From Oligoflexia bacterium (GTDB taxonomy: Bacteria > Bdellovibrionota_G > JANQFH01): 64,000 nucleotides of DNA. The stretch is from NCBI GenBank assembly GCA_028277945.1, contig JANQFH010000068.1:336400-400399 (forward strand), given 5' to 3'. The notes beneath the pieces were generated by a model that saw only the letters and a program-made list of their open reading frames with translations, did no database searches and was not told where the DNA came from. The position numbers and the translations under genes are program-made. The first letter of the stretch is position 1, and each line of letters opens with the position of its first letter. Positions 20,746 to 43,053 of the stretch are shown here, in pieces.

Positions 20746-21879
20746 CTAGCTCCTTATTGAACTTAGATCTTGTAAGCCCATAAACTGCACCTCTATCTGA
20801 CCATAGCGTTTACGGTAAGCTTGATGAACATCATGGGCGACGACGTAATTGGGGCCGTTCGGATATTCAGCTCGGAAGAGTTGTAGATTTTTGGGGTTAA
20901 AAGACTGAGCTTGCCACTTACATTCTATCGCCATGGCTTGCTGTTGACGGTTTGTAAGAACAAAATCAATTTCTTGCCCTCTTTTGGTACGCCAATAGTG
21001 AATCTGTCTATGCTGTAAATGAGCATGGAGTTCATTCAGCACCAGATGTTCCCATAACTCACCAAAGTCATTGCGGCGCAGTTGCTGCCAACCACGATAA
21101 TAACAGACAAAACCAGTATCAAAACCGTAGACCTTAGGCGCTGCAACGATCTCCTTAGCTCGACGGCTATGAAAGGGACGAATGACGTGCATGGCAAAGG
21201 TTTCTTCCAGTGCACCAAGATAATTACGAATAGTCGTATGGCTAACACCGCAAGGTGCTGCAAAAGAAGAAGCTTCAAAGACCCCACCACTTTGCACCAT
21301 AAGTAGCTCGAAAAACTTCATAAAAGAGTTGCGGCGTTCTAAGTTGAAAAGCTCCTGAATGTCCTTAGCCCAGAAAGAGTCCATCCACTCTTGAAAATAC
21401 GTTTCAGGATATTGTTTTGCTAAGAAAAAGGGTGGTAGTCCACCACGAAAGAGTCGGTGCTCAATACTTTGACACCCAAAGGACTCAAGATCGTTCATGG
21501 TCATAGGTGTTAACCAAAACGACTCCTTACGCCCAGTCAGCGTATCCTTAAACTTTTTGGATGCTCCTAAGGTTGAAGAACCCGTTGCAATAATCTTTGT
21601 CTGTGAGTAGTGGTCGGCGGCAATTTTGAGAAGTTCTGAGGGTTGCTCCAGGCGATGGATCTCATCCAACACAAGCGGGCCACGATTTTGGTCAAGAAAG
21701 GCCTCTGGATCTTCTAGCTGCCGCCGCACACGCGGCAGCTCACAATCAAAATAGTTCATGTTGTCAAATAGCTGGCAGAGCGTTGTCTTGCCAACACGCC
21801 TTACCCCGGCAAGCCAAATAATACTACGACGCTTCCACAGCTTGCGAAGCTTCTCTATCCACCATGTTCTGTGAACCAT
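20746..21879 (-). CDS. AAA+ ATPase with DUF4143 domain (copy 1)
   Basis: 377 residues. An N-terminal AAA domain carries Walker A GVRRVGKTT (about residues 24-32) and Walker B PLVLDEIH. The C-terminal half matches DUF4143, including a winged-helix-like section (CGVSHTTIRNYLGALEETF) and a PD-(D/E)XK-like end (KRGQEIDFVLTNRQQQAMAIECKW). The family's biological role is not established; members are often mobile and located at operon borders. The start is ATGG with no Shine-Dalgarno; instead a perfect 8-bp inverted repeat overlaps the ATG. Two further members occur in this window, with low similarity to this one by eye. Confidence 0.85.
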   Translation of the reverse strand: MVHRTWWIEKLRKLWKRRSIIWLAGVRRVGKTTLCQLFDNMNYFDCELPRVRRQLEDPEAFLDQNRGPLVLDEIHRLEQPSELLKIAADHYSQTKIIATGSSTLGASKKFKDTLTGRKESFWLTPMTMNDLESFGCQSIEHRLFRGGLPPFFLAKQYPETYFQEWMDSFWAKDIQELFNLERRNSFMKFFELLMVQSGGVFEASSFAAPCGVSHTTIRNYLGALEETFAMHVIRPFHSRRAKEIVAAPKVYGFDTGFVCYYRGWQQLRRNDFGELWEHLVLNELHAHLQHRQIHYWRTKRGQEIDFVLTNRQQQAMAIECKWQAQSFNPKNLQLFRAEYPNGPNYVVAHDVHQAYRKRYGQIEVQFMGLQDLSSIRS

Positions 21880-21899
21880 ATGAAACTATAATTTCATAT
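21878..21899 (-). promoter_or_regulatory. palindrome fused to the start codon of DUF4143 ATPase copy 1
   Basis: On the sense strand ATATGAAA and TTTCATAT flank TTATAG; the last AT of the right arm is the first two bases of the ATG. The spacer contains TATAGT, correctly placed for a -10 box that would start transcription at or next to the A of ATG. TTGAAA, complementary to 21911-21916, is a possible -35 with a 20-base spacer. A leaderless, operator-covered promoter is inferred. Confidence 0.6.
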
Positions 21900-22282
21900 A
21901 GAACGATTATTTTCAACCCTATAATCATTTGTCTACAACTAAACCGTAATTTGCCTTTGATTGCAGTCAGTTATTTTTTTCGGTTGTCAGATTTCCCGAA
22001 TTGTGATGGGGCTAATTTGTCCGCCATGGCCCTTTTTTGGTCGCATTTTCTCCACCGAGACTGGATAACTAGTTGATTTCAAGCCTCTAAGAACCATTTT
22101 ATTGTGGCCTAACTTTAAGAGACCTATTCGTTTCTGAGTGAATTAGAGCTCGCTTATCAGAATTGGTACGAGAAGCGGGAGGTAATTTCTACCGAGGATG
22201 GAAAAGCGGCTTATCCTCCGAGCTACGGTATTCAGGAAGTTAGGGAGGCTAAGAAATTTAAATTTCTTTGTCTGATTTTAAG
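21880..22282. other. 403-bp gap with a possible gene remnant and an 18-bp palindrome
   Basis: After the promoter palindrome of the ATPase, I see no complete gene. A plus-strand frame at about 22119-22268 reads like real protein (ELAYQNWYEKREVI, AAYPPSYGIQEVREAKK) but has no start codon and runs into the bamD-like antisense, so it may be the remnant of a lost gene. AAGAAATTT and AAATTTCTT form an 18-bp perfect palindrome at 22251-22268 just past the bamD-like stop. Confidence 0.45.
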
Positions 22283-23095
22283 TCAATTGCTCGTTTCTCT
22301 TTTTTGCTGCCGCATGGCTTCGAGAAGTCTGCGAGCGGCGGTAAGACGAGCCGTGTCTGTGCTGCGCTGCTCAAGCTGGTTTAAGGTGTTTGTCGCCTCA
22401 TTGAGTCGATCGGTTTTTGTGTAAACACGAATGAGATCAAAAAGCGCTGCTTCTGTCATATCTGCAAAAGAGAATTTATCGATAAGCGTGCGCAGCCTGC
22501 CCTCAGCCGCGAGCCATTTTTTGCGTTTAAGGTAGTAGTCCGCTACATAGCGCTGCCTCTTGGCAAGAAGTCGCTGCATTTGCCGCGCGAGTCCTGTGGC
22601 TTCCTCGCCATACTCAGGGTCCTGTTGGATTTTACTGAAACTGGCCAGTGCTGCTTCTACATGGGTCTGGTCGCGATCGATCGTACGTGGGATTTGCTGC
22701 TGATGGGCCTTGCCACTCTGCAGCAGCGCGTAACCAAGGCGCGGATGGGTAGGGTGGCGCTGTTGAAACTGATCGTAGATCGAGACCGCCTCGATGTACT
22801 CACCGCGGTCATAGAGGATATCGCCAATATGCAACTCAACCTCGGGGGTGCGTTTGCTGGACGGGTAGCGATTACGAAAAGCCTTAAGAAATTTAAGGGC
22901 TTCAAGCTGCTTTTTGGCTTCTACCAGCTCCATGGTATAGGTGTAGAGCTCATCCTCACTGCTGTAGTCTTCCGGCAGCTTGGGAGCGCAGGCGGCAAAC
23001 AGCAGCAGGGCGATTAGGGCTGGCAGGCAGGTTGCTTTAGCAGGTCCTTGCGGTAGGATAGGCGGGCTACTGGTTGGCCCTTGAGGTGATAACAT
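22283..23095 (-). CDS. bamD: outer membrane assembly lipoprotein, BamD-like
   Basis: About 270 residues. The N-terminal signal ends in the lipobox FAAC, so it is lipid-anchored. The mature protein has TPR-type repeats matching BamD/YfiO: KFLKAFRNRYPSSKRTPEVELHIGDILYDRGEYIEAVSIYDQF, then RHPTHPRLGYALLQSGKAH and RDQTHVEAALASFSKI (the RDQT element is characteristic). BamD joins BamA to insert beta-barrel proteins in the outer membrane. Its ATG (23095) and the tilS ATG (23094) share the palindrome CATG on opposite strands; a GTG at 23104 is an alternative start. No good ribosome site is visible, so the start is uncertain. Confidence 0.78.
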   Translation of the reverse strand: MLSPQGPTSSPPILPQGPAKATCLPALIALLLFAACAPKLPEDYSSEDELYTYTMELVEAKKQLEALKFLKAFRNRYPSSKRTPEVELHIGDILYDRGEYIEAVSIYDQFQQRHPTHPRLGYALLQSGKAHQQQIPRTIDRDQTHVEAALASFSKIQQDPEYGEEATGLARQMQRLLAKRQRYVADYYLKRKKWLAAEGRLRTLIDKFSFADMTEAALFDLIRVYTKTDRLNEATNTLNQLEQRSTDTARLTAARRLLEAMRQQKRETSN

Positions 23096-24500
23096 GAATT
23101 CCACGGCGCATCATGAAACCATCGTTGCTAGTGTCGAGTCAAGGATTGTTGCGCAGAATCTGCTACGCTCGGGCGATCGTCTCTTGCTGGCACTCTCTGG
23201 GGGTATCGATTCCATGGTTCTCCTTGATATCTTTCTGCGGTTGCGCGGCAAGCACGCCTTTAAGTTATATGCCTGTCACATCAATCACCATTTGCGTGGT
23301 CAAGAGAGCGAACGCGATGCCTGCTTCGTAGCCCAACGTCTTAAGGAGCTCGGCGTTCCCTGTGAAATTCTCACGGCTCTGGTGCCGCCTGGCGTGAACG
23401 TACAGCAGGGAGCTCGAGAGCTGCGCTACCAACTATTTGGTCAACTACTGCGGCAAAAACATTGCGACCGCCTGCTGCTTGCGCACCATGCTGATGATCA
23501 GGCGGAACTCTTGCTGATGCGGCTCGCTTCGGGTTGTGGATTGCAAGGTGCCTCAGGCATGCAAGCAAGCCGCGATGGTTGGTTGGTACGACCGCTGTTG
23601 CATTTGGAAAAGGCGCAGCTCATTGCTTACGGACATGAATGTCAGGTTGCCTATGTCGAGGACAGCAGTAATTTTAAACCTGACTATCGGCGCAACCGCT
23701 ATCGTCATGAGTTATTACCTGTACTAAAAGATATCCAGCCAGAGGCAGTAAGGAATATGGTTGCCTTTATGCAGATGGCGCGTCAGGAAGAGGCGTTTTT
23801 GACAGAGATGGCCAACAGGCTACTGACTGAGAACACACGTAGTCGCCAGGCCGATGGTATTGTTTTTCATCTTGAGCCACTAAGCCGCCTGCCCGATGTT
23901 ATGCAGCTGCGTGTGTACAAGGCTGCGATCAAAGCCGTCGGCGGGGGTGCCGTGGGTCGCCGCCAACTCCGGAGACTACAGGGTATGCTGTTGCGACGAG
24001 AGGGTTGTGAAGAGTTGCACTTGGGTGGTGGGCTTACCTGTTATCGCGATTACGATCTCTGCGAGTTGCGTCGGGGCCGCCGCCAACAGCGTCCTCCCTT
24101 CCAGTTTGTTGTCGGTCTTGCTAACCTGCCGGCGACGGTCAACGCCACACCCGTTGGCGGTAGGATTGTGCTTTCTAAGAGAAACTGTTTTAATAGCGCT
24201 GCTGAAGGCATCAACCTTGATTTAAAACGGTTGCACGGCAAGTTAGTGCTGCGAAACTGGGAGCCTGGTGACAAGATTCGTTTGCCGTGGTCTGGTTACC
24301 ATAAAAAACTAAAACGCTACTTTATCGACTATAAGATATCTCGTGATGATCGCCATAAGACTGTGGTGGTTTTAGATGGAGACAGGATTGCCGCCTTCAT
24401 AAACGGACCAAAAATTGCCGGTGGTTCGGTCGTCGATCGGGACTATCGCATCACTCGAGATTCGAGCGAGGTTTTAAACATCGTGGTAGAGAGTAACTGA
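23094..24500 (+). CDS. tilS: tRNA(Ile)-lysidine synthase
   Basis: 468 residues. The N-type ATP-pyrophosphatase motif SGGIDS is at residues 35-40, with [17 protein letters not shown] and [17 protein letters not shown], all diagnostic of TilS. It adds lysine to C34 of the tRNA-Ile CAU anticodon so that it reads AUA. The C-terminal TilS domain ends with [22 protein letters not shown]. The ribosome site GAGGTGA lies 5 bases before the ATG. One base separates its stop from the ftsH GTG, as in many proteobacterial tilS-ftsH pairs. Its start overlaps the bamD-like start on the other strand. Confidence 0.95.
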
Positions 24501-24501
24501 C

Positions 24502-26472
24502 GTGAAGCAAACGCAAAAGAGCTGGATACTGTGGCCTCTTCTAGTGCTTATGGTGCTACTGGTCCTCAGCGTCATGAACCGTGTTCCAGGTCAGGTTCAA
24601 GAGGTTGATTACAGCAGGTTTCGCCATTACGTGCGTCTTGGTCTGATTGCCTCAGTCAACATCAAAGGCAATGACATTACTGGGAAGTTCAAGGAAGAGT
24701 TTCCTCCGGAAAGCGGAGAGCTTTCTGTTGAAGAGCTAGAATTTGCAGGCAAGCGTTACCATACTTACACCATGGGTACGGGCGATGAGCTGATCAAATT
24801 TCTTGAAGAGAATCAGGTAGAGCAGTTTACCTCAAAGCCACAAGAAAAGGCGCCCTTCTGGCAACAACTGTTGATCAGCTGGCTACCGATGATGGTTATG
24901 ATATTCTTACTCTTCTTTCTCTTTCGTCAGATCCAGGCCGGTGGTGGCAAAGCACTGAACTTTGGTAAGAGTCGGGCACGTCGCCTTACCGAAGATCAGA
25001 CGAAAGTCACCTTTGCCAATGTTGCCGGTGTTGATGAGGCCAAGCAAGAGCTTGAGGAGATCATCGACTTTCTTAAAGACCCGAAGCGCTTTACGCGACT
25101 AGGCGGTCGTATTCCCAAGGGGGTGTTGCTCGTCGGTCCGCCAGGTACAGGTAAGACTTTGTTAGCCAAGGCGATTGCGGGTGAGGCCGGTGTACCCTTC
25201 TTTAGCATCAGTGGGTCAGACTTCGTTGAGATGTTTGTCGGTGTGGGTGCGAGCCGTGTGCGCGATCTCTTTGAGCAAGGCAAAAAGAATGCCCCCTGTA
25301 TCATTTTTATTGATGAGATCGATGCCGTTGGTCGGCAGCGAGGTGCTGGCTGGGGTGGTGGACACGACGAACGCGAACAAACCCTCAATCAACTGCTGGT
25401 AGAGATGGATGGCTTTGAATCCAAGGATGGCGTTATTCTCATAGCTGCCACCAACCGTCCAGATGTGTTGGATCCTGCTCTATTGCGGCCGGGCCGATTT
25501 GACCGCCGTGTGGTGGTGCCCATACCTGATGTTAAAGGCAGGATGGGTATTCTTGAGGTGCACAGTGCCAAGACTCCTTTGGGAGAGGATGTTGATCTTG
25601 AGGTGTTGGCTCGTGGCACTCCTGGTTTCTCAGGTGCTGACTTAGAGAACATGGTGAATGAGGCCGCTCTCATTGCCGCCAGGAGAGATAAGTCAACGGT
25701 AGAGATGAACGACTTTGAAGTTGCCAAAGACAAGGTGATGATGGGTTCGGAACGGCGCAGTATGATTATTAGTGACGACGAAAAGAGAACCACGGCTTAC
25801 CATGAAGCGGGCCATGCCTTGGTTGCCAAACTGCTTCCGGGTACGGATCCGGTTCACAAGGTGACGATCATCCCGCGAGGCATGGCTTTAGGCGTGACGC
25901 AGTTGTTACCGAAGGAAGACAAGTACACCTTCAGCCAAGAGTTTGCCGAAAATCAGATCGCCTACATCATGGGAGGACGATGTGCTGAGGAGCTGATGTT
26001 GAAAGAGCGTACCACCGGAGCGGGAAATGATTTTGAGCGCGCCACCGAACTTGCGAAAAAGATGGTGTGTCAATGGGGCATGTCTGAGAAGCTTGGGCCA
26101 TTGGCCTATGGCAAACAAGATGATCAGGTATTTCTCGGTAAAGACTTTGTGCAGCGCAAAGAGTATAGCGAACGCACCGCACAGTTGATTGATGAAGAGA
26201 TCAAGCGCATTGTCGATGAGAATTACCAACGCGCGAGAGGCTTATTGAGCAAAAATGTTCAAAAGCTCGAAAACCTGGCCAAGGCGCTGCTTGAACACGA
26301 GGTTTTAGACGGTGATGAGGTAGACCAGGCGATAGCAGGTAAACCCATTCGTAGAAAACCGGATTCGGTTGCTGCCAAAGTTGCACGGCCTCGTGCCAAG
26401 CGAAAGTCGACAGCGCAAACAGCAACGGATAAGCCAGAGGAAACTGCAGAGGCGGAGTCTAAGGCCTCATGA
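24502..26472 (+). CDS. ftsH: ATP-dependent zinc metalloprotease FtsH
   Basis: 656 residues, normal length. Two transmembrane helices (about 9-27 and 122-142) flank the FtsH extracellular domain. The AAA module has Walker A GPPGTGKT (212-219), Walker [10 protein letters not shown] and the second region of homology ([21 protein letters not shown]). The zinc site HEAGH is at residues 434-438. The GTG start follows tilS by one base, and the stop overlaps the cdaA ATG by 4 bases. It degrades misassembled membrane proteins and some regulators. The C-terminal 40 residues are basic and low-complexity, as often seen. Confidence 0.97.
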
Positions 26473-27278
26473 GTGGCATTCCCACAATTACTCTAGTCGA
26501 TATTTTGGACATCCTCTTGGTTGCCGCGATCATCTATCTGTTACTGCTGTTGATTCGTGGTACTCGCGGCATCTATATGCTTGTTGGGCTGCTGATTTGT
26601 GGTGTGGTACTCTGGCTCGCTAACCTTTTTGAACTGCGTGCGCTGGGCTCTATCCTGGGTCAGCTCTTTTCTAGTCTGATTTTGGTGATTGTCGTAATTT
26701 TCCAACATGACATCCGTCGGGTTCTTACTAAGGTTGGGCGTTCGCCATTTTTTAAACGACAATCACTTCAGGAGCGGGAGACCTTAGAAGAGTTGGTTAA
26801 GACTTCGGTCTCTCTGGCGAACAAAAAGATCGGCGCGCTCATTGCTATAGAACGTGGTGGTAACTTGGTGGACCATGTTGAACAGGGTGTGCCGGTTGAC
26901 TCACTCGTCAACAAGGATCTGCTGACGTCGATCTTTCTGCCGGTCTCACCCCTACACGACGGCGCCGCAGTGATTCAGGGCGCGCGCGTTGTCCAAGCTG
27001 GCTGTTTATTACCGTTATCCATGAGTGTTAACGTCACTAAGGTCTACGGCACACGGCACCGTGCTGCCATTGGCCTCACTGAAGAGACCGATGCTGTGGT
27101 GATTGTAGTTTCTGAAGAGCGTGGTGTGGTCTCTCTTGCCGTAGAGGGCAAGATTGAAGACAACTTGGATGCTGTACGTCTCCGCGAGCGTTTACTAGAT
27201 ATGTTTGGTCCGCAGAATCGTCTGCAGTGGTTTCGTACTATTTTGCAGAATCGATTTGCAATTGCGAAGAGAGAATGA
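26469..27278 (+). CDS. cdaA: diadenylate cyclase CdaA
   Basis: 269 residues. Three N-terminal transmembrane helices (residues about 10-75) precede the DisA_N cyclase domain. The active-site motifs DGAAVIQG and GTRHRAAIG are intact, as is the SEERG segment, so synthesis of c-di-AMP from two ATP is expected. The folP gene found between ftsH and cdaA in some related genomes is absent. It overlaps ftsH and cdaR by 4 bases each (ATGA), giving a tightly coupled ftsH-cdaA-cdaR unit. In other bacteria CdaA is controlled by CdaR and GlmM; here both are encoded downstream, but glmM is displaced by 4.2 kb. Confidence 0.95.
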
Positions 27279-28216
27279 TCGAGTTACTCAAGAATCTTCT
27301 GTTCAAAAACCCAGGTCTTAAAATCGGCTCTCTCTTTTTGGCCGTGATTGTTTGGTTTGCTATCCACGGAGAGGCGCAGATTGAAGCTTTTATTACCATT
27401 GATGTGCAGTTAAAAAACCGACCGACTAACCTCATCATTACCAATGCGGTAACGGATAAAATACACCTGCGTATTCGCGGGTCTCGCACGCAGATTAAAA
27501 AAGTGCAAGAGCAGCCACCCGATCCTTATGAAATCGATTTGGCCAACACTGAAAGCGGCAGCGCTCTGTTTCGGGTCTTCTCTTTTGATTTTACCTTACC
27601 GCGCGGGGTGCAGATCACCCGTATCAACCCACAGCTGATTACTGTGGAGCTCGAGCAGCAAGAGAGCAAAGAGCTGCCCGTGCGCATCGCCTTTAGTGGC
27701 AGCCTCGAGCGTGGTTTTGTGATTGTCTCCAAACGGGTGACACCCTCGAGCGTCACGGTTGCCGGTGCAAAGTCAGCCATGCGCACGCTTAGTGCCGTAC
27801 ACACCGAAGAGGTGCAACTCAACGGTCTAAGAGAGGGGTTTAGTCGCACTTTGCGCCTTGCGTTGTCGAGTAGTGGTAACATCTGGCTTGATGGCCCGGA
27901 AGAGGCCCAGGTCGACATTGAGATTGAGGAACAGCTGCTTTCCGAAATGATCGATACCATACCCATTACCGTTAAGGGCCAATTCAAGAGCGTTACTATC
28001 AAACCGCAGCAGGCAAGCCTCATGCTGCAGTGTCCCGCCGGCCTGCTTCACGATCTGCGCCGCCAGCCACCGCTGGTATTCCTCAACGCCGATAAAATCC
28101 AAGTGGCTCAAGGCAGCAGCCGCACGGTCAATCTCAAGCTGCGCTACCAGGTGCCTGATAGCTGCAAAGTCCTCAAGAGCGTGCCTGCGCTCGTCCAAGC
28201 AACGCTGAGCCGTTGA
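27275..28216 (+). CDS. cdaR: CdaA regulatory protein CdaR (YbbR-domain protein)
   Basis: 313 residues from the ATG at 27275, which overlaps the cdaA stop; an upstream in-frame start inside cdaA is rejected. A single N-terminal helix (LKIGSLFLAVIVWFAIHG, with the family's Trp) anchors YbbR repeats, each with VDVQLKNRP- or LPVRIAFSG-type strands, on the periplasmic side. CdaR modulates CdaA activity in known systems. In the ancestral order glmM follows directly; here a small gene, a DUF4143 ATPase and two other genes intervene. Confidence 0.88.
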   Translation: MIELLKNLLFKNPGLKIGSLFLAVIVWFAIHGEAQIEAFITIDVQLKNRPTNLIITNAVTDKIHLRIRGSRTQIKKVQEQPPDPYEIDLANTESGSALFRVFSFDFTLPRGVQITRINPQLITVELEQQESKELPVRIAFSGSLERGFVIVSKRVTPSSVTVAGAKSAMRTLSAVHTEEVQLNGLREGFSRTLRLALSSSGNIWLDGPEEAQVDIEIEEQLLSEMIDTIPITVKGQFKSVTIKPQQASLMLQCPAGLLHDLRRQPPLVFLNADKIQVAQGSSRTVNLKLRYQVPDSCKVLKSVPALVQATLSR

Positions 28217-28232
28217 GGTAGGCTAAGAGTGG

Positions 28233-28397: not shown

Positions 28398-28528
28398 AAA
28401 TCGGTCGGCTGCTTGAACCTTGGGTCGCTGATTTTCAAGGTGGTTAGGTAGGTTCTAAGACGTCCGTCCCCTATTCGTTTGCCTGCATGTATCTATATAA
28501 TTGAATATATTAACTTTTTCTGATAAAT

Positions 28529-28573
28529 CATTATAATTGCAAAATATGATAAAATATTGCATTATAATTGCAA
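28529..28573 (+). repeat. 14-bp direct repeats before DUF4143 ATPase copy 2
   Basis: CATTATAATTGCAA occurs at 28529-28542 and 28560-28573, exactly 31 bases apart (about three helical turns). The second copy is the right part of the start-codon palindrome. Two bound proteins would lie on the same face of the DNA. Confidence 0.7.
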
Positions 28574-28576
28574 TAT
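28554..28576 (+). promoter_or_regulatory. palindrome fused to the start codon of DUF4143 ATPase copy 2
   Basis: ATATTGCA (28554-28561) and TGCAATAT (28569-28576) flank TTATAAT. As in copy 1, the last AT of the right arm is the AT of the start codon, which reads ATGG. TATAAT (28563-28568) is a perfect -10 whose start point would be the A of ATG at 28575, implying a leaderless mRNA. A 14-bp block is also directly repeated at 28529-28542 and 28560-28573, 31 bases apart. Confidence 0.65.
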
Positions 28577-29711
28577 GGGACTTTATCAGCGAACACTGAA
28601 TCTACCTGCTTTGCTGGCAAAAAAGTCTTTCTTTCTTTTTGGGCCCCGTGGCACTGGCAAGACGACTTTAGTCAAGCGGCAATGCCGGGGGGCACGCATT
28701 ATCGATCTGCTGGATGCCCCTGTTTTTTCTGATCTGCTCAGAAATCCTCAGCTCATTGGCGAGTACGCGTCTGGTCTGATCGTCATTGATGAAATTCAGA
28801 AGCTTCCTAGTTTGCTTGATGAAGTACACCGGCTCATGGAGAGTAAACGCAACAATAAATTTCTTTTGACAGGAAGCAGTGCTCGCAAACTGAAACGGGG
28901 GAGTGCCAATCTCTTGGCTGGACGAGCATGGTGGGCTGAACTCTTTCCACTAACGTTTAACGAGATTGATGATTTTGATCTTTTAACCTATCTCAATACG
29001 GGTGGGTTGCCGGCTATCTATGGTAGCTCTAATGCCACAGAGGAGCTACGAGCCTATTCGGCTCTCTACTTGAAAGAGGAAGTGCAACAGGAGGCGCTGA
29101 CTCGAAAAATAGCGAGTTTTGCAGAGTTTCTAGAGCTCATAGCTCTATGTGTTGGCGAGGAGCTGAACTACCAATCGTTATCCAGCGACCTAGGCGTGGC
29201 GGTTAATTCCATTAAGAATTTTATTGAGGTTTTAGAAGACACCCTTATTGGCTTCTCCTTGGCAGCCTATACCAAAACAAAAAAACGAAAAGCGATCACT
29301 CGTTCGAAATTTTACTTGTTTGATGTTGGAGTTGCCAACTATCTGGCAAAAAGAGGTCAAATTTTTGCTGGATCGGAACTCTTTGGTAAGGCTTTTGAGC
29401 ACTTTATTATACAAGAAGTACGTGCTTATCTATCCTACGCTAGGAGAGACTTAGCAATAAGCTATTGGCGGTCGACGTCAAAATTCGAGGTAGACTTGAT
29501 TGTTGGCAATGAATATGCCTTGGAGATCAAAGCGACCAAGTTGGTTCAGGACAAGCACCTAAAAGGTCTCCGTGCTTTTAAAGAGGAGCAGTTAATAAAA
29601 CAATTTGCGGCCATTAGTTTAGACAGGGATGAGCGCGTAACCCATGATGCCATTAAAATATTACCTTGGAAAACTTTTCTCAGAAGGATGTGGGTAGGAG
29701 AGCTGTTCTAA
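28575..29711 (+). CDS. AAA+ ATPase with DUF4143 domain (copy 2)
   Basis: 378 residues from the ATG at 28575. An in-frame TTG at 28557 exists, but the ATG is favoured by domain fit and by the palindrome. Walker A is GPRGTGKTT and Walker B LIVIDEIQ; TGSSARKLKRG is the family's sensor-like motif. The DUF4143 half shows SSDLGVAVNSIKNFIEVLEDT (winged-helix-like) and a C-terminal nuclease-like strand pair (KFEVDLIVGNEYALEIKATK). It is inserted between cdaR and glmM, separating genes adjacent in related genomes. No Shine-Dalgarno is present. The sequence differs strongly from copies 1 and 3. Confidence 0.85.
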   Translation: MGLYQRTLNLPALLAKKSFFLFGPRGTGKTTLVKRQCRGARIIDLLDAPVFSDLLRNPQLIGEYASGLIVIDEIQKLPSLLDEVHRLMESKRNNKFLLTGSSARKLKRGSANLLAGRAWWAELFPLTFNEIDDFDLLTYLNTGGLPAIYGSSNATEELRAYSALYLKEEVQQEALTRKIASFAEFLELIALCVGEELNYQSLSSDLGVAVNSIKNFIEVLEDTLIGFSLAAYTKTKKRKAITRSKFYLFDVGVANYLAKRGQIFAGSELFGKAFEHFIIQEVRAYLSYARRDLAISYWRSTSKFEVDLIVGNEYALEIKATKLVQDKHLKGLRAFKEEQLIKQFAAISLDRDERVTHDAIKILPWKTFLRRMWVGELF

Positions 29712-29719
29712 ACGTATTC

Positions 29720-30262: not shown

Positions 30263-32188
30263 ATGTGTTCTAACACCAATCGGCCTCTCCTCATTTTGTT
30301 CTGCATTGCTTGCACTCCTCTAACGCTTTGGGCAGCTCCTCAAGGCGAACGTGAAGCTGTAACACTCTGCGACCCTATACTTAGACCGGAGTTTGTTGAC
30401 GGTGAGCCAGTAGACAAGGAAGCTCCAGCCAGGCTTTTAGCAGGCGACAAACCTGTAATGGTCCGGCTTCAAGCGTCAACCGTGACTTCATATAGTAGCG
30501 GCAAAACCTACACCCAGTACGAAATTAGACTGGAAGACGACGTGATTGGTGCTATTCGCGTTGATGATGCGGGATGTCTTGTTGACGAGTTGTATTCTAT
30601 TACCGCGATCCGTAATCGGTTTTGGCTGCAGGCATTCGTTGATGAGGGCATAGGAGCGCTGCTCAACCGATATCATGATCATAAGGTCCACAGCGTTGTC
30701 CACTGGGGTAAGTTTGAAAAGTACCATCATGAAATTGCAACCGGTGTTGACTCTGATAATTTCAAAGCAATTGCAGCGACCGTAAAACAGTACATGATGG
30801 CACGTGAAGATCTTGAGCCGCGTACCTTTGAGTTTTTTAGAAACATAGACGAAAAAGAGTCTTTCGGATTGACGGATGGAACGAAGTACTATTCCTGCCA
30901 TGCAAACGAACGTGAATCAAAGCAATCGCATGGTCGGATACGACGTAAACACTTTTTTAGATTAACTAAAGATGGAACACTGACGCATATTATCGAGCCC
31001 CAATCCAATATTTACTCTGCAAATGAACTGAAGGTCGCCGGTTTGATAGCTTACCTAACCGCGTTGGGAGAGGATCCACGTGCAGCCTTTCCGGTTTTTC
31101 ACTTTACAATTCGTGGTAAGGCTTACGATCAGGGTGTTTACTACGTCGATGTAGATTACTACCAGACCCGTGATGGCCGCTTTTTTGTGAAGGAAGACTT
31201 CAGTTTGGGATACCGCTACGAACAAGCAGAAAACGCAGGTTCTGTTTTATTGGAATGGGCAAGGCGGTGTGCAGCAATGGAGGCAAGGTTATTTCCAGCA
31301 GCGATGACGCTCATGGATGCCTACGATGAAACGGAGCTGTTGTACACCTCAGATCGTATTGTAGACAGCAGTGTTGGTGTGGCTGAACGCAGACGTTTTG
31401 GTCAATACAGTGTGAACCGTATAACCGGTAAAACAACCTGTGAGAAGCTCTACGACTATTTTAAGCTGCCTGACACACCAGATTCAGGCAACGATGTGAT
31501 GCCAGAAGAATTCTTTGCATCATTGCCTGACGTTGCTCTGACACCCGGCGCGGAGCTACACTATAATGACCGCTTTATTCCAGAAGACTCAAGAGCGCTT
31601 GTTGGCGGTTGGATAACAACCGCTCTTGAACATTTGCAAGATTACGGTGCGGGCGAAAACTTAATAAGCTGGAAAGGCGATCAACAGGTTCTAGAAGGGA
31701 AAAGCGTTGTGATTACACCGGTACTTGCACTCGACCGCCGTGTTTCGACCATTGGCGGATTGGGTTCAGAAATAGTGAATGCGATTATGAATCCTGAAAA
31801 CCCGCTTTTTGGTACAACTGTGCTCACCGACCCACGTTCAGCTTCAACAGCAACAGCCTTTATTTTCATTGTAATAGACTGGGTGTTGTGGAATCGCAAC
31901 GAGACGGAAAAATCGGCCCATCGAGCAGAGTCCGACCTTACGGCTGTTTTAGCCCATGAGATATTTGGGGTGCTGCCGCCTTTTCTTGAGACCCCTATCA
32001 AGGATCTGCATAAAATTATTGCTCCAAGTAAACAGGCAGAGAGGGAGCGCAATGCCTTTGATATCGGCATTGCTTTTCAAACAGAAATAATCAACAGCGA
32101 TGCCTTTGGCTCATGGAGCCCAGAACGTCGACGAGCCTTCCTAGAGACCCGAGATCTACACCGAGATCTGCGCGCCACTTGGAAGTAA
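30263..32188 (+). CDS. large exported protein of unknown function
   Basis: 641 residues. An N-terminal signal peptide (hydrophobic run LLILFCIACTPLTLWAA, cleavage near residue 25) suggests export. The body has regions rich in aromatic residues and charges (VYYVDVDYYQTRDGRFFVKEDF) and one later hydrophobic stretch (ATAFIFIVIDWVLW, about residues 533-546) followed by AVLAHEIFGVLPPFLETP. The HE pair is not a full HExxH zinc motif. No domain is recognised. It sits inside the accessory stretch that separates cdaR from glmM; its ribosome site is weak (GGAAT). It could be an envelope enzyme or an effector. Confidence 0.6.
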   Translation: MCSNTNRPLLILFCIACTPLTLWAAPQGEREAVTLCDPILRPEFVDGEPVDKEAPARLLAGDKPVMVRLQASTVTSYSSGKTYTQYEIRLEDDVIGAIRVDDAGCLVDELYSITAIRNRFWLQAFVDEGIGALLNRYHDHKVHSVVHWGKFEKYHHEIATGVDSDNFKAIAATVKQYMMAREDLEPRTFEFFRNIDEKESFGLTDGTKYYSCHANERESKQSHGRIRRKHFFRLTKDGTLTHIIEPQSNIYSANELKVAGLIAYLTALGEDPRAAFPVFHFTIRGKAYDQGVYYVDVDYYQTRDGRFFVKEDFSLGYRYEQAENAGSVLLEWARRCAAMEARLFPAAMTLMDAYDETELLYTSDRIVDSSVGVAERRRFGQYSVNRITGKTTCEKLYDYFKLPDTPDSGNDVMPEEFFASLPDVALTPGAELHYNDRFIPEDSRALVGGWITTALEHLQDYGAGENLISWKGDQQVLEGKSVVITPVLALDRRVSTIGGLGSEIVNAIMNPENPLFGTTVLTDPRSASTATAFIFIVIDWVLWNRNETEKSAHRAESDLTAVLAHEIFGVLPPFLETPIKDLHKIIAPSKQAERERNAFDIGIAFQTEIINSDAFGSWSPERRRAFLETRDLHRDLRATWK

Positions 32189-34527: not shown

Positions 34528-34530
34528 CCC

Positions 34531-36497: not shown

Positions 36498-36981
36498 GTC
36501 TGCCACTACTGAGGCGACCGAGAGCATTGGCCGACGTTTTGGTAGGCATTTGCGTGCGGGCGATCGAGTCGCGCTCACAGGCGAGTTGGGTTCTGGTAAG
36601 ACGACTTTAGTTCGTGGTGTGGCGCATGGTATGGGTATTGATCCACAAGAGTGGGTCTCTAGCCCTACTTATGCCTTGCTCCATGAGTACCGCGGCCCAC
36701 TGACTCTCTACCACTTTGATCTCTATCGTATCCGCCACGAAGCTGAGGTCTTAGACCTTGGCCTTCCCGAATACCTGCGGCGGCAGGAGGACAAAACCAG
36801 AGACCATGTGGTTGTGGTAGAATGGGCCGACCGTATGGCGCTCAAGTTTCCGCCTGGCAGCTTTTACGTTACTATAGAGTGCATGGTTGGTAATGATAGC
36901 TCAGAGCTGCAACGCCGGATCTGCTTTGGTCACGATGAAGCCAGGGGCGCCGACTTTTTTGATTTTATGGAGCGCCAGTAG
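36469..36981 (+). CDS. tsaE: tRNA threonylcarbamoyladenosine biosynthesis ATPase TsaE
   Basis: 170 residues from the ATG at 36469 inside the end of nnr; an upstream in-frame start at 36415 would add residues absent from the family. Walker A GELGSGKTT lies at about residues 38-46, followed by SSPTYALLHEY, LYHFDLYR and VVVEWADR, all diagnostic of TsaE. It works with TsaB and TsaD to install t6A37 in ANN-decoding tRNAs. Its stop abuts the next ATG (36982) with no gap. Confidence 0.94.
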   Translation: MKRATLFSLESATTEATESIGRRFGRHLRAGDRVALTGELGSGKTTLVRGVAHGMGIDPQEWVSSPTYALLHEYRGPLTLYHFDLYRIRHEAEVLDLGLPEYLRRQEDKTRDHVVVVEWADRMALKFPPGSFYVTIECMVGNDSSELQRRICFGHDEARGADFFDFMERQ

Positions 36982-38424
36982 ATGAACGTTGAGATTGTTT
37001 GGCTTGCCTATGATGCCCAACTGGTACAAAGGGCATGGTCCGATGTCTCGGTTCGGCAGCTCTACACAGAGGTTCTGCAGGATAACTTTCGTCGGCGTGT
37101 CGACCCACGTTCGATGCTCTTCCACAAGAGTCAATACTATCTTCTCAACGATCTTGAACTGCTCATGAAGTGTGGAGCTAGCGACCTTTCCTTGCAGGAG
37201 TATCTTGCCAGGCTTTTTCACAAGGGAGTCGAGGAGTTTCCTACAGACTCAGGAGAGCTCTTTTTCGACTATCGCATCATCAGTTACTACACTTCATTGC
37301 GCATGGCGGATGAACATCACCTGGTCGAGCCCTTTTTTAAGACCTTGCTTTCCCAGCAGAGCAAACTAGCTAAGGACGAGCCTTGGGGCCTGCTGCAGGT
37401 TCAAGACATCCGTGGTTTCTTCAGAGCGCTTAGCGATATCAAGATTCAAGATGTCATCGATGCTGCCAAAAAAGCAGGTCAAACAGAAGAAGAGGCCAAG
37501 GCATTCATCAAATTGGTTACCAACTACATTGAATTCTATCACTACACACGCAATAACGATTTAGAACTCTTTTATTATAACAATCAAACGGATATTCGCC
37601 GTTGGGGTAATCTGTCTAAACGTAAGCAGCAGCGAGATAAACTCGTTGTTGAACTTACTTACAGTAAGACAACGCATGGAAGTGAAGCAACAAAGACACC
37701 ATCAATTGTTCTGGACGACGATCTCATAAGCAAGATGCGTTTCAAAAGGCGGATTGAAAACCTCGAAGCCGGTCTACAGGATCAAGATCCCTTGATTCGC
37801 CAGAAGGCTGCCGAAGGCCTAGGAGTTGCCGGTAACTACGGTTCGGTACTACCGTTGATCAAGGCGCTTACCGATGAAGAGCCGGAAGTGCGCCAAGAGG
37901 TTTTGCGCGCTCTTGCTGCCATACGGGATCCACGTTCGGTGGAGGCCATCATCCAGTTGATTCTCAAAGATGACTCCATTGGTGTGATCATGAGCGGTGC
38001 CCATGCTTTAGTACAGATCGGTGATCCGCGTGGTCTCGAGGCGTTGATCGAGCTGTTGCTCCGTGGTGTTTATGATGTTGCTGTGCAGATTGCCAACTTT
38101 CCTAATTTGATAAAAAACAAAACTGCGGTCAACATGCTCCTGCAGGCTATGGATCATCCCAACGAAGTGGTGCGACGACAGGTGGCTTTTGTGCTTGGCG
38201 ACATTCCCAATAAGCTGGTGGTTGATCGGCTGCTGCGCTCCTTGGACGATGAGGATGCTGAAGTCAAGACCAACTCGGCAAGCTCGCTCGGACGTATTGG
38301 CTCCAAGCGTGCCCTTCCAGAACTCTATCAGTGTCGCAACTCACTCACCCCACCCCAGACAAAGTGGGTGGTCGAAGAGGCGATTGACTCCATCCTTGAA
38401 AAGGGCCGTGTCGCCACGGGTTAG
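36982..38424 (+). CDS. HEAT-repeat protein
   Basis: 480 residues. The C-terminal half (about 255-465) consists of HEAT/PBS-lyase-like helical repeats, each about 31 residues with the Asp/Pro-Val-Arg turn (LQDQDPLIRQKAAEGLGVAG, LTDEEPEVRQEVLRALAAI, MDHPNEVVRRQVAFVLGDI, LDDEDAEVKTNSASSLGRIG). The N-terminal 250 residues are helical, soluble and not recognised. No signal peptide, so cytoplasmic; probably a protein-protein scaffold. It immediately follows tsaE, and a large inverted-repeat element separates it from lysC. Confidence 0.8.
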   Translation: MNVEIVWLAYDAQLVQRAWSDVSVRQLYTEVLQDNFRRRVDPRSMLFHKSQYYLLNDLELLMKCGASDLSLQEYLARLFHKGVEEFPTDSGELFFDYRIISYYTSLRMADEHHLVEPFFKTLLSQQSKLAKDEPWGLLQVQDIRGFFRALSDIKIQDVIDAAKKAGQTEEEAKAFIKLVTNYIEFYHYTRNNDLELFYYNNQTDIRRWGNLSKRKQQRDKLVVELTYSKTTHGSEATKTPSIVLDDDLISKMRFKRRIENLEAGLQDQDPLIRQKAAEGLGVAGNYGSVLPLIKALTDEEPEVRQEVLRALAAIRDPRSVEAIIQLILKDDSIGVIMSGAHALVQIGDPRGLEALIELLLRGVYDVAVQIANFPNLIKNKTAVNMLLQAMDHPNEVVRRQVAFVLGDIPNKLVVDRLLRSLDDEDAEVKTNSASSLGRIGSKRALPELYQCRNSLTPPQTKWVVEEAIDSILEKGRVATG

Positions 38425-38432
38425 GTTGGAGT

Positions 38433-38589
38433 ATTCATGACGGCAATGTGCAGATTTCCGCATCTCTGCGTTGGGTTCACTCATCCGGGTCCTCACGTAC
38501 GTTTTCAGTACGCTGCGGTCCGTCTGAGCGTCCCCGCCTTGATCTGCAAAAATCTGCACATTGCTCCTAACGTAATGCTTTTCATGAAT
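38433..38589. repeat. 157-bp nested inverted-repeat element before lysC
   Basis: Three nested perfect arms: ATTCATGA/TCATGAAT (38433-38440, 38582-38589), the 15-bp pair at 38443-38457 and 38550-38564, and CGTAC/GTACG (38496-38500, 38508-38512) at the tip; CACTCA/TGAGCG pair partly between. The whole gap can fold into one long stem. The inner 'TCACGTAC...GTACGCTGCGGTCC' part resembles repeated extragenic palindromes I associate with related genomes. No T run follows it. Confidence 0.7.
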
Positions 38590-38600
38590 GATAGTGGTTA

Positions 38601-39836
38601 ATGGCGCGGTTGGTGCAAAAATTTGGCGGTGCAGCGGTTGCTGGCTTGGAGCGTGTCTCTGCGGTTGCTGAGCAAATTAAAAAGGCGTGGAGTAACAACC
38701 ACGAAGTCGCGGTCGTTGTTTCAGCCATGAAGGGAGAGACCGATCGTCTTGTCTCCTTAGCGCAGCAGGTTATGCAGCAGCCAAACTCACGCGAGTATGA
38801 TGTGTTGGTGAGTTCAGGGGAACAGGTCTCTGTGGCTCTCTTGGCCATGGCGCTTAACAAGATCGGCGTACCCGCATGCTCTCTGCTTGGCCATCAGGTA
38901 CGTATTCGTACTGACAGTAGCCATGCACGCGCTAAGATTCTCTCGGTTGATACCAATCGCGTTAAGGAGCTGCTCACAGTCAAGAAGGTGCCGGTGATTG
39001 CGGGTTTTCAAGGCATTGATGCCCACGAGGAGCTTACCACCTTAGGGCGGGGCGGCTCGGACCTCACTGCAGTCGCCTTGGCCGCAGCACTTGCAGCAGA
39101 GACCTGTGAGGTCTACAAGGACGTTGACGGAGTTTTTACAGCCGATCCACTTGTCTGTGGAGATGCAGCGCTGATTGAAACAGTGTCTTATGAAGAGATG
39201 ATGGAGCTTGCCAGTAGTGGTGCTAAGGTTTTACAAACCAGAGCAGTGCTGTTTGCAAAAAACTCTGGTGTTTCCATTCATGTAAAATCTTGCTTTAACT
39301 GGGATAGGCCCGGTACCCAAGTCGTTAGTGAGGACAAGCTTATGGAAAAGGCAGTTGTCTCGGCAGTCACCATCGATAAGAATGAGGCCAAGATCGGTAT
39401 CGATCGGCTTCCTGATAAACCAGGAGTGGCTGCGAAACTCTTTTCAGCTTTGACAGAGAAAGAAATCTTCGTTGACATGATCGTGCAAAATGTCAGCTCC
39501 GAGGGTAATTGTGCCTTAGCATTTACGGTTCCCAAGGATCAGGTGGAAGAGGCTTACGCCATTGTCAAGCAGCTCTGTCAGGAGCATGGCTGGGGTGGCG
39601 TGCTTAAAGATGAAAAGGTCGCTAAGGTTTCCGCAATTGGGGTTGGCATGCGGACCCACAGCGGTGTCGCATCGCAGATGTTTCAAGCGCTTGCTGAAGA
39701 GGGAATCAATATTACCATGATCGGCACCTCGGAGATCCGCATATCCTGTCTTATTGAGGAGAAGTATGCCGAGCTGGCACTACGTACGCTTCACGAAGCT
39801 TTTCGATTGGGGCAGCCCAACCCCAACAAGAGCTAG
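38601..39836 (+). CDS. lysC: aspartate kinase
   Basis: 411 residues, monofunctional type. It phosphorylates aspartate, the first step to lysine, threonine and methionine. Family motifs include VVSAMKGETDRL, LVSSGEQVSVALLAMAL, AGFQGIDAHEELTTLGRGGSDLTAVALAAAL and DVDGVFTADP, then two ACT domains (about 265-405), ending in MRTHSGVASQMFQALAEEGINITMIGTSEIRISCLI. One departure is that the KFGGTS nucleotide/substrate motif reads KFGGAA (Ala11, Ala12). It lies after the inverted-repeat element and probably starts its own transcript. Its last 71 bases overlap the next gene. Confidence 0.94.
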   Translation: MARLVQKFGGAAVAGLERVSAVAEQIKKAWSNNHEVAVVVSAMKGETDRLVSLAQQVMQQPNSREYDVLVSSGEQVSVALLAMALNKIGVPACSLLGHQVRIRTDSSHARAKILSVDTNRVKELLTVKKVPVIAGFQGIDAHEELTTLGRGGSDLTAVALAAALAAETCEVYKDVDGVFTADPLVCGDAALIETVSYEEMMELASSGAKVLQTRAVLFAKNSGVSIHVKSCFNWDRPGTQVVSEDKLMEKAVVSAVTIDKNEAKIGIDRLPDKPGVAAKLFSALTEKEIFVDMIVQNVSSEGNCALAFTVPKDQVEEAYAIVKQLCQEHGWGGVLKDEKVAKVSAIGVGMRTHSGVASQMFQALAEEGINITMIGTSEIRISCLIEEKYAELALRTLHEAFRLGQPNPNKS

Positions 39837-40338
39837 CAACACTTTCCTTATTATCCTTGCTGCGCTGATTGGAGTTGCCAAGCTCACCTCTTTGCACCAG
39901 CCAACTCATGCTACTGCTACAGAGCTTGCCTTTTACCAACGCCTCTCATTGCAGTCTGCCACACAGCTGTGGCTGCTAAGCGACCCAGAGCCACCACAGC
40001 CCCTATGTGCAAAGGTGAATACAACCGGCTTGCTAAGCGGATGGTCTGCCTGGCATCGCTGCAGCCCTCCACCAGAGGCGGCCTATTTGGAACAACCCTG
40101 TTTTTGGCTGCCTACCACTCCATCCACCCGGCTGCTCCTCGGCTTGCCGCTACCGATCAACCGCGCCACAACCGCCGATCTTGTTCAACTCCCTGGTATT
40201 GGTGAGGTTTTGGCTCGCCGGCTGGTGGCGTGGCGCCGCGCAAACGGCCCTTTTCGCAGCCGTATCGACCTCATAGCCGTGCGTGGCATTGGCGAGAGAA
40301 AAGCGCAGGGGCTGGACAAGCGCCTCTGTTACGAGTAA
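39766..40338 (+). CDS. helix-hairpin-helix (ComEA-like) membrane-anchored protein
   Basis: 190 residues from the ATG at 39766, which has GAGGAG 3 bases upstream; it overlaps lysC by 71 bases, which is unusual. A hydrophobic helix (NTFLIILAALIGVAKL) near residue 25 anchors it. The C-terminal 60 residues are a pair of helix-hairpin-helix motifs (NRATTADLVQLPGIGEVLARRLVAWR, IDLIAVRGIGERKAQGL) as in ComEA DNA-uptake proteins. The central part has cysteine pairs. With the pilin genes nearby, a role in DNA binding during uptake is possible. The start could lie further downstream. Confidence 0.72.
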   Translation: MPSWHYVRFTKLFDWGSPTPTRASNTFLIILAALIGVAKLTSLHQPTHATATELAFYQRLSLQSATQLWLLSDPEPPQPLCAKVNTTGLLSGWSAWHRCSPPPEAAYLEQPCFWLPTTPSTRLLLGLPLPINRATTADLVQLPGIGEVLARRLVAWRRANGPFRSRIDLIAVRGIGERKAQGLDKRLCYE

Positions 40339-40399
40339 ATAACCCATCGCACCAAGGAGGTGCGCTCCGTCCTTCATGAGATATAGAGGTTAAAAGGCT

Positions 40400-41719
40400 A
40401 TGGCAGCAGTATCCAAGAGTGTGATCAAATCAGCAACCGGTAGGGTTGGCGTCTTGCTTCCCGGCCTGGGTGCCGTCAGCACTACCTTTATCATTGGCGT
40501 CAAAGCGGTGCTGCGCGGTCTCGGACAGCCCATAGGCTCCTTAACCCAGATGGGCACGATAAGGCTGGGTAAGCGTACAGAGAATCGGCGACCGCTGATC
40601 CAGGAGTTTGTGCCGCTGGCTAAACTGGAGGAGCTCCACTTTGGTGCGTGGGATATCTTTCCGCAGAGCTGTTATGAAGTTGCCAAGAACTCCTCGGTTA
40701 TTTTTAAGGAGCTGATAGAAGAGGTCAAAGAGGATATCGATGCCATCCGTCCGTGGCCAGCTGTTTTTGATAACAGCTTTGTGAAGAACCTCGATGGCGA
40801 ACATAAGAAGTCAGCAAAGAGCAAATGGGATCTAGCACGAATGGTTGGCGAGGATATCGATCGCTTCAAGCAGGAAAAAAATCTCGATCGTCTCGTCATG
40901 GTTTGGTGCGGTTCCACGGAGGTGTTGACCCAACGCCAAGCTGTGCATGAGTCGATTGCAGCATTTGAAAAAGGTCTACGTGAAAACCATCCAGCCATCG
41001 CTCCGAGCATGATATACGCCTATGCGGCGATCAAGCGCGGCATTCCCTACGCCAATGGCGCTCCTAACCTCACTGCAGACATTCCCGCGCTCATAGAGCT
41101 TGCCAAGGAACATCAAACTCCTGTGGCTGGTAAGGATTTTAAAACCGGACAGACACTCATGAAGACCGTCATAGCTCCGGGGTTGAAGTCACGGCTTTTA
41201 GGGATTCATGGTTGGTTTTCCAGCAACATCCTTGGCAATCGCGATGGTGAAGTACTGGATGATCCTGACTCTTTCAAAACCAAAGAGGAGAGCAAGCTCG
41301 GTGTGTTAGAACACATTCTTGAGCCACAGGTGAATCCAAAACTGTATAAAGATCTCTACCACAAGGTACGCATCAACTACTATCCACCGCGTGGCGACAA
41401 CAAAGAGAGTTGGGACAATATCGATCTCTTTGGTTGGCTTGGCTACAACATGCAGCTGAAGTTTAACTTTCTCTGTAAGGACAGCATTCTCGCAGCACCC
41501 ATCGTGCTCGATCTTGTTTTGCTGCTCGACTTTGCCAAGCGTGCTGGCATGCGCGGCATTCAAGAGTGGCTCTCGTTCTTCTTCAAGAGCCCCATGGTTG
41601 CCGAAGGCCTCAAACCGGAGCACGATCTGTTTATTCAGCAGATGAAGCTCAAGAACACGCTACGCCACTTGATGGGTGAGACACCGCTGACCCACCTCGG
41701 CCTTGAGTACTACGACTGA
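40400..41719 (+). CDS. ino1: inositol-3-phosphate synthase
   Basis: 439 residues. The Rossmann-type start GVLLPGLGAVSTTFIIGVKAVL and the blocks EELHFGAWDIFPQSCYEVA, RLVMVWCGSTEV, GQTLMKTVIAPGLKSRLLGIHGWFSSNILGNRDG and DDPDSFKTKEESKLGVLEHIL are diagnostic of myo-inositol-1-phosphate synthase (Ino1). It isomerises glucose-6-phosphate with NAD, making inositol phosphate for inositol lipids or compatible solutes. AAAAGG precedes the ATG. The stop overlaps that of the convergent DUF4143 ATPase by 10 bases. A trehalose phosphatase gene lies 6 kb downstream, so osmolyte synthesis is a possible use. Confidence 0.94.
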   Translation: MAAVSKSVIKSATGRVGVLLPGLGAVSTTFIIGVKAVLRGLGQPIGSLTQMGTIRLGKRTENRRPLIQEFVPLAKLEELHFGAWDIFPQSCYEVAKNSSVIFKELIEEVKEDIDAIRPWPAVFDNSFVKNLDGEHKKSAKSKWDLARMVGEDIDRFKQEKNLDRLVMVWCGSTEVLTQRQAVHESIAAFEKGLRENHPAIAPSMIYAYAAIKRGIPYANGAPNLTADIPALIELAKEHQTPVAGKDFKTGQTLMKTVIAPGLKSRLLGIHGWFSSNILGNRDGEVLDDPDSFKTKEESKLGVLEHILEPQVNPKLYKDLYHKVRINYYPPRGDNKESWDNIDLFGWLGYNMQLKFNFLCKDSILAAPIVLDLVLLLDFAKRAGMRGIQEWLSFFFKSPMVAEGLKPEHDLFIQQMKLKNTLRHLMGETPLTHLGLEYYD

Positions 41720-43023
41720 GCGTCCATTAGGAAGTCATGTACCGTCAAACCTTTTATATGATCTGTTTCAAACGATGACTGTGAAACAACCGTTAGATAC
41801 TTGTTGGGGAAAGTCTTCGAAAACCAGGCAAACTCTAAGGGCCCTGTTTTTTCCAACTTCACCTCGACAAGATTCCCTTGCCGATCAACCAAGTCGATCT
41901 CGTTCTCTTTAGACTGCCAGTACCCAAGTTCTTCGAGATCAAGTTGCCCTTTGATGGCCCGCCGGCGCCACAGTTCTTGGGCAACCAACCATTCCAGTAA
42001 GATCGCCCGTGATTTTGCTGGCAGAGATTTAAATTCGTGGATCATTCTAGGCTGTTCTGGGTGAAAGGCGATCGCTCCAGCTAAATTTACAAAGTGAAAC
42101 TTGGCCGGTCTGCGCATGATAATTCTTGCATTCGACAGATCAATTGCCGGCGAAGCAAACAGGGTCATAAGATCTGCCAGCTGTTCGATATAACCGCTAG
42201 CAACAGTGTTATTGGCCAAGCCGCTTTCGCGTGCGAGCTTAGTAAATCCAACTGGAGTACCGCCAAAACGGTAGATTTGCTCGAGCACAGCGGCTAGATA
42301 GCCACGACTACGTCCACTAGTAACTACATCACCAAGAATCCAGTCCCGCACGATTTGAATTAAGTATTCAGGAATTCTCTCGAATTGGTAGATGTCATTT
42401 AAGCCTAAGGGCGAGCCACCACCTAAAAGATAAGCGATCCAAGCATCGTCCTGCAATTCTTTTCCGCAGATTTCATAAAAGCTTGAGTAGGATACGGGAA
42501 GAAAAATATAGTCGGTTCTTTTTAAATGGCCCTTGCGTCCGGGAAGCCGCTCGGATCCTCGTCGAAGACTACGTGCGTTGGAACCTGTGGTGATAACCAG
42601 AATCTTTTTCAGTTTACCTTGATCTGCTGCTCGTTTGAGAATCTTTTCCCAGCCGTTGATTGCTGTTATCTCATCAATGAATAGACGACGAACCTTTGCG
42701 TGTTTGGCAAAAGAAGCACTTAAGGAGGTTATTTGATTAAAAAAATCTTTTTCACTAAGTAGGTCGTCTCCATTAATGTAAAAAGCGGATCCTGCGCCAA
42801 ACTCTTCGATGGTCCATCGAAGTTCCAGATCCATCCATGTGCTCTTTCCATATTGTCGTGGACCACGGATAAATAGCATTCCCGGCTGTAACGGCAGCTT
42901 CGGTAGGCCAAATGCAAAAGGAAAGGGAGCCGCCTTACTTTCATACTCAACAATGCGAGGCCACATGTCCTCACGGTCGATCTCGCCACGTGCCAGCAAG
43001 GCGTTTATTTGCTCAACGTTCAT
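41710..43023 (-). CDS. AAA+ ATPase with DUF4143 domain (copy 3)
   Basis: 437 residues from the ATG at 43023; the same frame stays open to a GTG at 43212, which would add 63 residues, so the start is not certain. Walker A is GPRQYGKST, Walker B RLFIDEIT, then ITTGSNARSLRRGSERLPGRKG. DUF4143 features are GLANNTVASGYIEQLADLM (winged-helix-like) and the nuclease-like end SKENEIDLVDRQGNLVEVKL. The ATG sits exactly between two AACGTT hexamers, with two more upstream, favouring it as the true start by analogy with the other two copies. No Shine-Dalgarno is present. It separates ino1 from an unknown exported protein. Confidence 0.82.
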   Translation of the reverse strand: MNVEQINALLARGEIDREDMWPRIVEYESKAAPFPFAFGLPKLPLQPGMLFIRGPRQYGKSTWMDLELRWTIEEFGAGSAFYINGDDLLSEKDFFNQITSLSASFAKHAKVRRLFIDEITAINGWEKILKRAADQGKLKKILVITTGSNARSLRRGSERLPGRKGHLKRTDYIFLPVSYSSFYEICGKELQDDAWIAYLLGGGSPLGLNDIYQFERIPEYLIQIVRDWILGDVVTSGRSRGYLAAVLEQIYRFGGTPVGFTKLARESGLANNTVASGYIEQLADLMTLFASPAIDLSNARIIMRRPAKFHFVNLAGAIAFHPEQPRMIHEFKSLPAKSRAILLEWLVAQELWRRRAIKGQLDLEELGYWQSKENEIDLVDRQGNLVEVKLEKTGPLEFAWFSKTFPNKYLTVVSQSSFETDHIKGLTVHDFLMDAQS

Positions 43024-43053
43024 AACGTTCAATATATCAACGTTCTGAACGTT
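43015..43053 (-). promoter_or_regulatory. four AACGTT palindromes around the start of DUF4143 ATPase copy 3
   Basis: AACGTT occurs at 43015-43020, 43024-43029, 43039-43044 and 43048-43053 (spacings 9, 15, 9). The start codon occupies the 3 bases between the first two. TATATT (complement of 43031-43036) could be a -10, with TTGTTC as -35 17 bases upstream, which would start transcription next to the ATG. If the longer frame is used, the repeats encode Asn-Val pairs. Confidence 0.6.

Follow-up and report, generated by a model that had tools for sequence, protein, structure and literature searches.

ATPase genes of the DUF4143 family frequently carry a palindrome of their own at the promoter, and this site appears to travel with the gene rather than with the genome. 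We consider it probable that each ATPase represses its own, nearly leaderless promoter by means of a winged helix. The window, i.e. the whole analyzed stretch of 64,000 nucleotides from an Oligoflexia bacterium, contains three of these genes. A first-pass annotation had read them as DUF4143 ATPases with a private palindrome on each start codon. Pfam detects AAA_14 and DUF4143 in all three, PADLOC assigns all three to PDC-S01, and the sequence contains both palindromes (copies 1 and 2) and the four AACGTT units (copy 3) as it had described them.

Copy 1 (20746-21879, minus strand) combines an AAA_14 ATPase, a winged helix and a PD-(D/E)XK-like DUF4143 part, with Pfam matches to PF13173 (2.7e-22) and PF13635 (1.8e-36) and a PADLOC match to PDC-S01 at 2.8e-60. 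Its putative operator is a 22 bp palindrome on the minus strand at 21878-21899, ATATGAAA-CTATAA-TTTCATAT, the end of which supplies the first two bases of the ATG at 21879. A consensus scan predicts a -35 element, TTGAAA, at 21911-21916 on the same strand. Copy 2 likewise joins AAA_14, winged helix and DUF4143 in an open frame of 28557-29711 on the plus strand, starting with the ATG at 28575. The putative operator of 23 bp (28554-28576, plus strand) reads ATATTGCA-TTATAAT-TGCAATAT, holds TATAAT in its core and enters the ATG with its right arm, while a second half-site, TTATAATTGCAA, lies upstream on the same strand (28531-28542). The genes next to copies 1 and 2 are housekeeping genes (BamD-like, TilS, FtsH, CdaA, YbbR), and inspection of these neighborhoods revealed no recognizable defence island. 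The window also contains two long open frames at 30263-32188 and 16219-17547 (641 and 442 aa) that have no Pfam match.

Copy 3 (41710-43023, minus strand) has the same domains and is longer at the N-terminus. Its AACGTT units at 43015-43020, 43024-43029, 43039-43044 and 43048-43053 are laid out with the start codon (43023-43021) as AACGTT-N3-AACGTT-N9-AACGTT-start codon-AACGTT, giving two putative operators on the minus strand. The first, AACGTTCAGAACGTT at 43039-43053, sits between a -35 element (TTGTTC, 43054-43059) and a -10 element (TATATT, 43031-43036, 7 nt from the ATG), both predicted by the consensus scan on this strand. The second, AACGTT-ATG-AACGTT at 43015-43029, has the start codon as its spacer and reaches into the coding sequence, where the unit at 43015-43020 sets residues 2-3 (Asn-Val). 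A GTG at 43212 was considered as start of copy 3 and rejected in favor of the ATG at 43023, because relatives align from this ATG and their own frames close 4-16 codons upstream of the equivalent codon.

The genome of the window (2.86 Mb in 92 contigs) yielded 16 DUF4143 matches above the cut-off in addition to copy 3. A start could be defined for 15 copies; in 12 of them the highest-scoring palindrome between -100 and +20 reached at least 7, compared with 18 of 177 control genes with an upstream gap of at least 80 nt (Fisher p=8e-9). A strong palindrome centered between -50 and +5 was found in 9/15 copies and 7/177 controls (p=6e-8), and L006, L013 and L002 have perfect arms of 17, 14 and 13 bp, respectively. 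The same holds in a second, distant genome of 2.2 Mb with about 50 DUF4143 matches (G135): 18 of 34 members have a palindrome scoring at least 8 and centered between -50 and +5 compared with 14 of 130 controls (p=5e-7). Family palindromes cluster there near -15 and -34, whereas those of control genes are scattered over the whole upstream region. The expectation of the first-pass annotation that palindromes exceed those of other genes is thus borne out; that they exceed shuffled sequence is true of 37% of 182 distinct family members (p<0.05, dinucleotide shuffles) and not of the remainder. On their own, copies 1 and 2 exceed shuffled sequence only modestly (p about 0.04 and 0.20), and four AACGTT within 45 nt, as in copy 3, were reached in 0 of 2000 shuffles. 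Clean palindromes are common in the family, not universal, and in the remaining members the repeats may be looser, widely spaced or direct, or there may be no repeat. Palindromes scoring at least 8 among the 182 members mostly center at -50 to -10. The position on the start codon, which is correct for the three window genes, does not stand as a family rule: it occurs in 10 of the 182 and is a minority variant of a general promoter operator.

Several individual loci deserve mention. In G135 (L216-L235) this candidate defence family has expanded to an extreme degree, to about 50 matches in 2.2 Mb, with several adjacent or divergent pairs. L008 (G000:C28:126840-130313) has three CAAAATACTC/GAGTATTTTG elements 35-90 nt upstream of its start, farther out than in most copies. 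L015 (G000:C61:9249-12695) is without the Walker A motif or the N-terminal part and apparently decayed; it sits 9 kb from the similar L016.

The sites are conserved in relatives. Three other genomes, from the same phylum and from different ones, contain four relatives of copy 3 (42-59% protein identity), and all four keep the register AACGTT-N3-AACGTT-N9-(AACGTT)-start-AACGTT while flanking bases drift. The third unit is partly decayed in three of them and the first has one changed base in one. One relative starts with GTG at the same place and still keeps the array, and Asn-Val stands at residues 2-3 in all five family members (Met-Asn-Val, or Val-Asn-Val codons with GTG). Relatives of copy 1 (42-62% identity) have inverted repeats in the same region (combined p=1e-7 with loops of up to 14 allowed), several of the form TACTAAATGCAA..TTGCATTTAGTA. 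Those of copy 2 in Bdellovibrionota show one or two TCGGCA..TGCCGA palindromes, and many in Bacteroidales show arrays of TGTAGTTTTATCATGATAAAACTACA-like units. Where two proteins are 45-70% identical, the operator of one is recovered in the promoter of the other much better than neighboring upstream segments are (mean z per gene 1.67 compared with 0.16, n=56, p=5e-9), and changed arm pairs are compensatory in 25% of cases compared with 11% in shuffled controls. Orthologues lacking any repeat would have spoken against the first-pass annotation; instead, repeats are kept in orthologues.

Within the genome of the window the tested operators are private, as had been proposed. Each of the four operators tested is found nowhere else in the 2.86 Mb genome: that of copy 1 is single at up to 2 arm mismatches, that of copy 2 at up to 3 mismatches, and exact AACGTTNNNAACGTT occurs solely in the two sites of copy 3. 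Between genomes, TTTACTC..GAGTAAA is common to L012 from the same genome, L090 from a different family of the phylum and L229 from a different phylum, and TTCAGAATAGT is common to L006 and L198. In these cases the operator follows the ATPase gene and its subfamily, not the genome, even between phyla. The further claim that each ATPase has its own DNA specificity fits the differences between subfamilies, but close paralogues may have operator cores in common, such as AAAAAAGT..ACTTTTTT in G135, so that members of one subfamily may regulate one another.

Some defence operons are controlled by a regulator encoded apart, e.g. BrxR (PMC9122589) and RptR (PMC12255303), and the palindromes could accordingly be sites of another host regulator of defence genes. 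We regard this as unlikely, as the operators vary from gene to gene within one genome, each occurring once, and the same operator accompanies the same ATPase subfamily across phyla. The one gene product that accompanies the site is that of the linked gene.

Predicted family promoters often adjoin the start codon. In G135 a -35/-10 pair with the -10 ending 3-12 nt from the start was found in 24 of 34 members (71%) compared with 14 of 130 controls (11%), and in the genome of the window in 6/15 (40%) compared with 16/177 (9%). Shine-Dalgarno sequences are absent from all 34 members of G135 compared with 35/130 controls having one; in the genome of the window the numbers are 1/15 and 47/177, a difference that is not significant. 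This agrees with the promoter placement and the absence of Shine-Dalgarno sequences noted for the three genes in the first-pass annotation. With the -10 so close to the start and few Shine-Dalgarno sequences, many copies look leaderless, with transcription that would begin on the start codon or close to it.

The palindromes span the -10/-35 elements or are located directly upstream of them, which bears on whether they act as RNA, i.e. as a 5' mRNA hairpin controlling translation. The overlap with the start codon in 10/182 members and the co-variation of the arms would suit a hairpin. Most palindromes, being at or upstream of the -10, would not be transcribed, pointing to DNA operators, and the units of copy 3 are self-complementary with the fixed spacing of a DNA operator design; we hold RNA action to be very improbable. 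Equally improbable in our judgment is that the palindromes mark the target or the ends of a mobile unit and are acted on by the nuclease. In favor are the many copies of the family, its patchy distribution and its PD-(D/E)XK fold, and upstream direct repeats of L058 and L062 (AAAAGCGGACATTT; AAATCGACATTT) resemble insertion-sequence ends rather than operators; however, there is one site, at the promoter only, whose register relative to the -35, the -10 and the start is fixed, and the four tested operators have no second copy in the genome. Chance palindromes in AT-rich promoter DNA, simply inherited by orthologues, would suit the weak scores of copies 1 and 2 and the many members no better than shuffled sequence, but are contradicted by control genes and shuffles, unconserved adjacent DNA, co-varying arms and the retention of the array of copy 3 by four distant relatives, making this a very poor explanation.

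The predicted protein structures offer a candidate for the DNA-binding partner. AlphaFold2 models of copies 2 and 3 (mean pLDDT 93.3 and 90.8) show an ATPase, a winged helix-turn-helix (HTH) and a C-terminal part like PD-(D/E)XK nucleases. The winged helix, anticipated by the first-pass annotation, comprises H199-206, H210-222 and E226-229 in copy 2 and H260-267, H271-284 and E288-291 in copy 3. In 51 proteins the Walker A/B residues (G-R-GK, DE) and the PD-(D/E)XK core residues (E275, E305-x-D307, E317-x-K319) are invariant, and the strand order of the copy 2 model (E295-300, E305-310, E314-318) fits this fold. All six copies tested match the PADLOC candidate PDC-S01 with the profile covering the whole protein. 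Sequence and fold searches of the PDB yielded no full-length relative and only matches of low TM-score to AAA, RuvB/clamp-loader, STAND (Apaf-1, NRC, Avs) and Card1/Cdn1 proteins; NCBIfam and PHROGs searches gave nothing useful on these proteins. DUF4143/PDC-S01 proteins are very common but little studied, and to our knowledge their biochemistry has not been described. Membership in PDC-S01 marks them as candidate phage-defence proteins. PMC12988326 describes PDC-S01 as a fusion of an ATPase with a PD-(D/E)XK fold and ranks it fourth in frequency among the defences of prokaryotes, and according to a published survey no individual locus is more frequent in the rumen.

If the protein reads its own operator, the recognition helix should change with it. 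Among relatives of copy 3, no 12-residue window of the protein is as conserved as the recognition helix, GLANNTVASGYI, which alone reaches 11 invariant residues. At matched protein identity, the likeness of exposed recognition-helix positions is 0.45 where the operator is conserved and 0.28 where it is not (adjusted difference 0.14). These positions rank 3 of 365 slid windows, with a value equalled or exceeded by 30 of 2000 randomly drawn sets of columns; the wing region is the top-ranked window, and windows outside the HTH, e.g. around residue 27, rank high too. L186 and L187 are 54% identical overall and 85% in the HTH and have the same operator, whereas copy 2 and L100 are 63% identical overall and 41% in the HTH and their operators differ. 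A partial Mantel test of HTH-operator linkage over all 103 operator genes showed little signal specific to the HTH, with a partial r of 0.10 overall and of 0.03 for pairs below 45% identity (68/500 permutations), and a per-column scan, in which 8 of the 25 highest-ranked columns fell within 192-243, was no more than suggestive. The matched-identity test was chosen after the Mantel test had failed, and p values are approximate because pairs share genes. The weak Mantel signal may be due to the noise expected when unrelated operators are compared. Overall, operator and recognition helix co-vary at matched identity and weakly in the partial Mantel test, and the signal is confined to moderately related pairs.

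Self-repression is the most likely explanation; given the Mantel counter-evidence and a matched-identity test chosen afterwards, we call it probable and no firmer. Combining an AAA/STAND-like ATPase, a winged HTH and a PD-(D/E)XK-type nuclease fold in one chain, the protein would, as a twofold-symmetric assembly, bind the palindromic operator in its own promoter through the winged helix. With the -10 often 3-12 nt before the start codon, transcription would begin at or near the ATG, and operator binding would block RNA polymerase and keep the protein scarce, with relief on ATP binding or infection. Joint change of operator and helix would give each subfamily its own specificity and thus allow up to about 50 copies to coexist per genome. 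Induction of a family member has been reported: TT_P0211 of Thermus thermophilus was up 6.6-fold in the plasmid-bearing wild type, and in the Argonaute mutant the plasmid changed no gene more than 4-fold. This shows that a family member is inducible and says nothing on how.

A wider reading, which we offer tentatively and would sooner doubt than accept, takes the whole PDC-S01/DUF4143 family as one-gene immune units. The ATPase-nuclease would be parked on a private operator at a near-leaderless promoter, the same molecule serving as repressor, sensor and effector; activation by ATP or infection would free the promoter and arm the nuclease, and orthogonal operators would let tens of units coexist. 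The autorepression proposed here would provide a mechanism by which up to about 50 ATPase-nucleases, each potentially toxic, can be tolerated in one cell. In practical terms, a private operator per gene lends itself to a quick, cheap binding or reporter assay for the family, operators offer a way to predict correct start codons, and hundreds of natural HTH-operator pairs are at hand for learning a recognition code.

Reports place the family among the commonest candidate defence genes of prokaryotes, though the literature searched on DUF4143, COG1373 and PDC-S01, with few subscription journals and preprints covered, gave nothing on its control and no account of this promoter architecture. The PDC-S01 passages available deal with prevalence and phylogeny and describe no promoter architecture, operator or regulation. 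Private operators and many paralogues per genome are reminiscent of type II toxin-antitoxin autoregulation, in contrast to which the units here are single genes with no partner. BrxR, RptR, CapK/CapS and the C proteins of restriction-modification (R-M) systems are dedicated defence regulators with palindromic operators. They are encoded by separate genes, whereas here the effector itself carries the HTH. In M.SsoII and M.EcoRII, one polypeptide is both the enzyme and the repressor of its own promoter, using an HTH on a palindrome. We propose the same union of enzyme and repressor here. For M.SsoII, regulation of transcription in its R-M system by the N-terminal region is described in PMC3978073. 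Unlike these enzymes, the DUF4143 proteins have no methyltransferase, their HTH lies between the ATPase and nuclease-like domains, and dozens of diverging specificities occur per genome.
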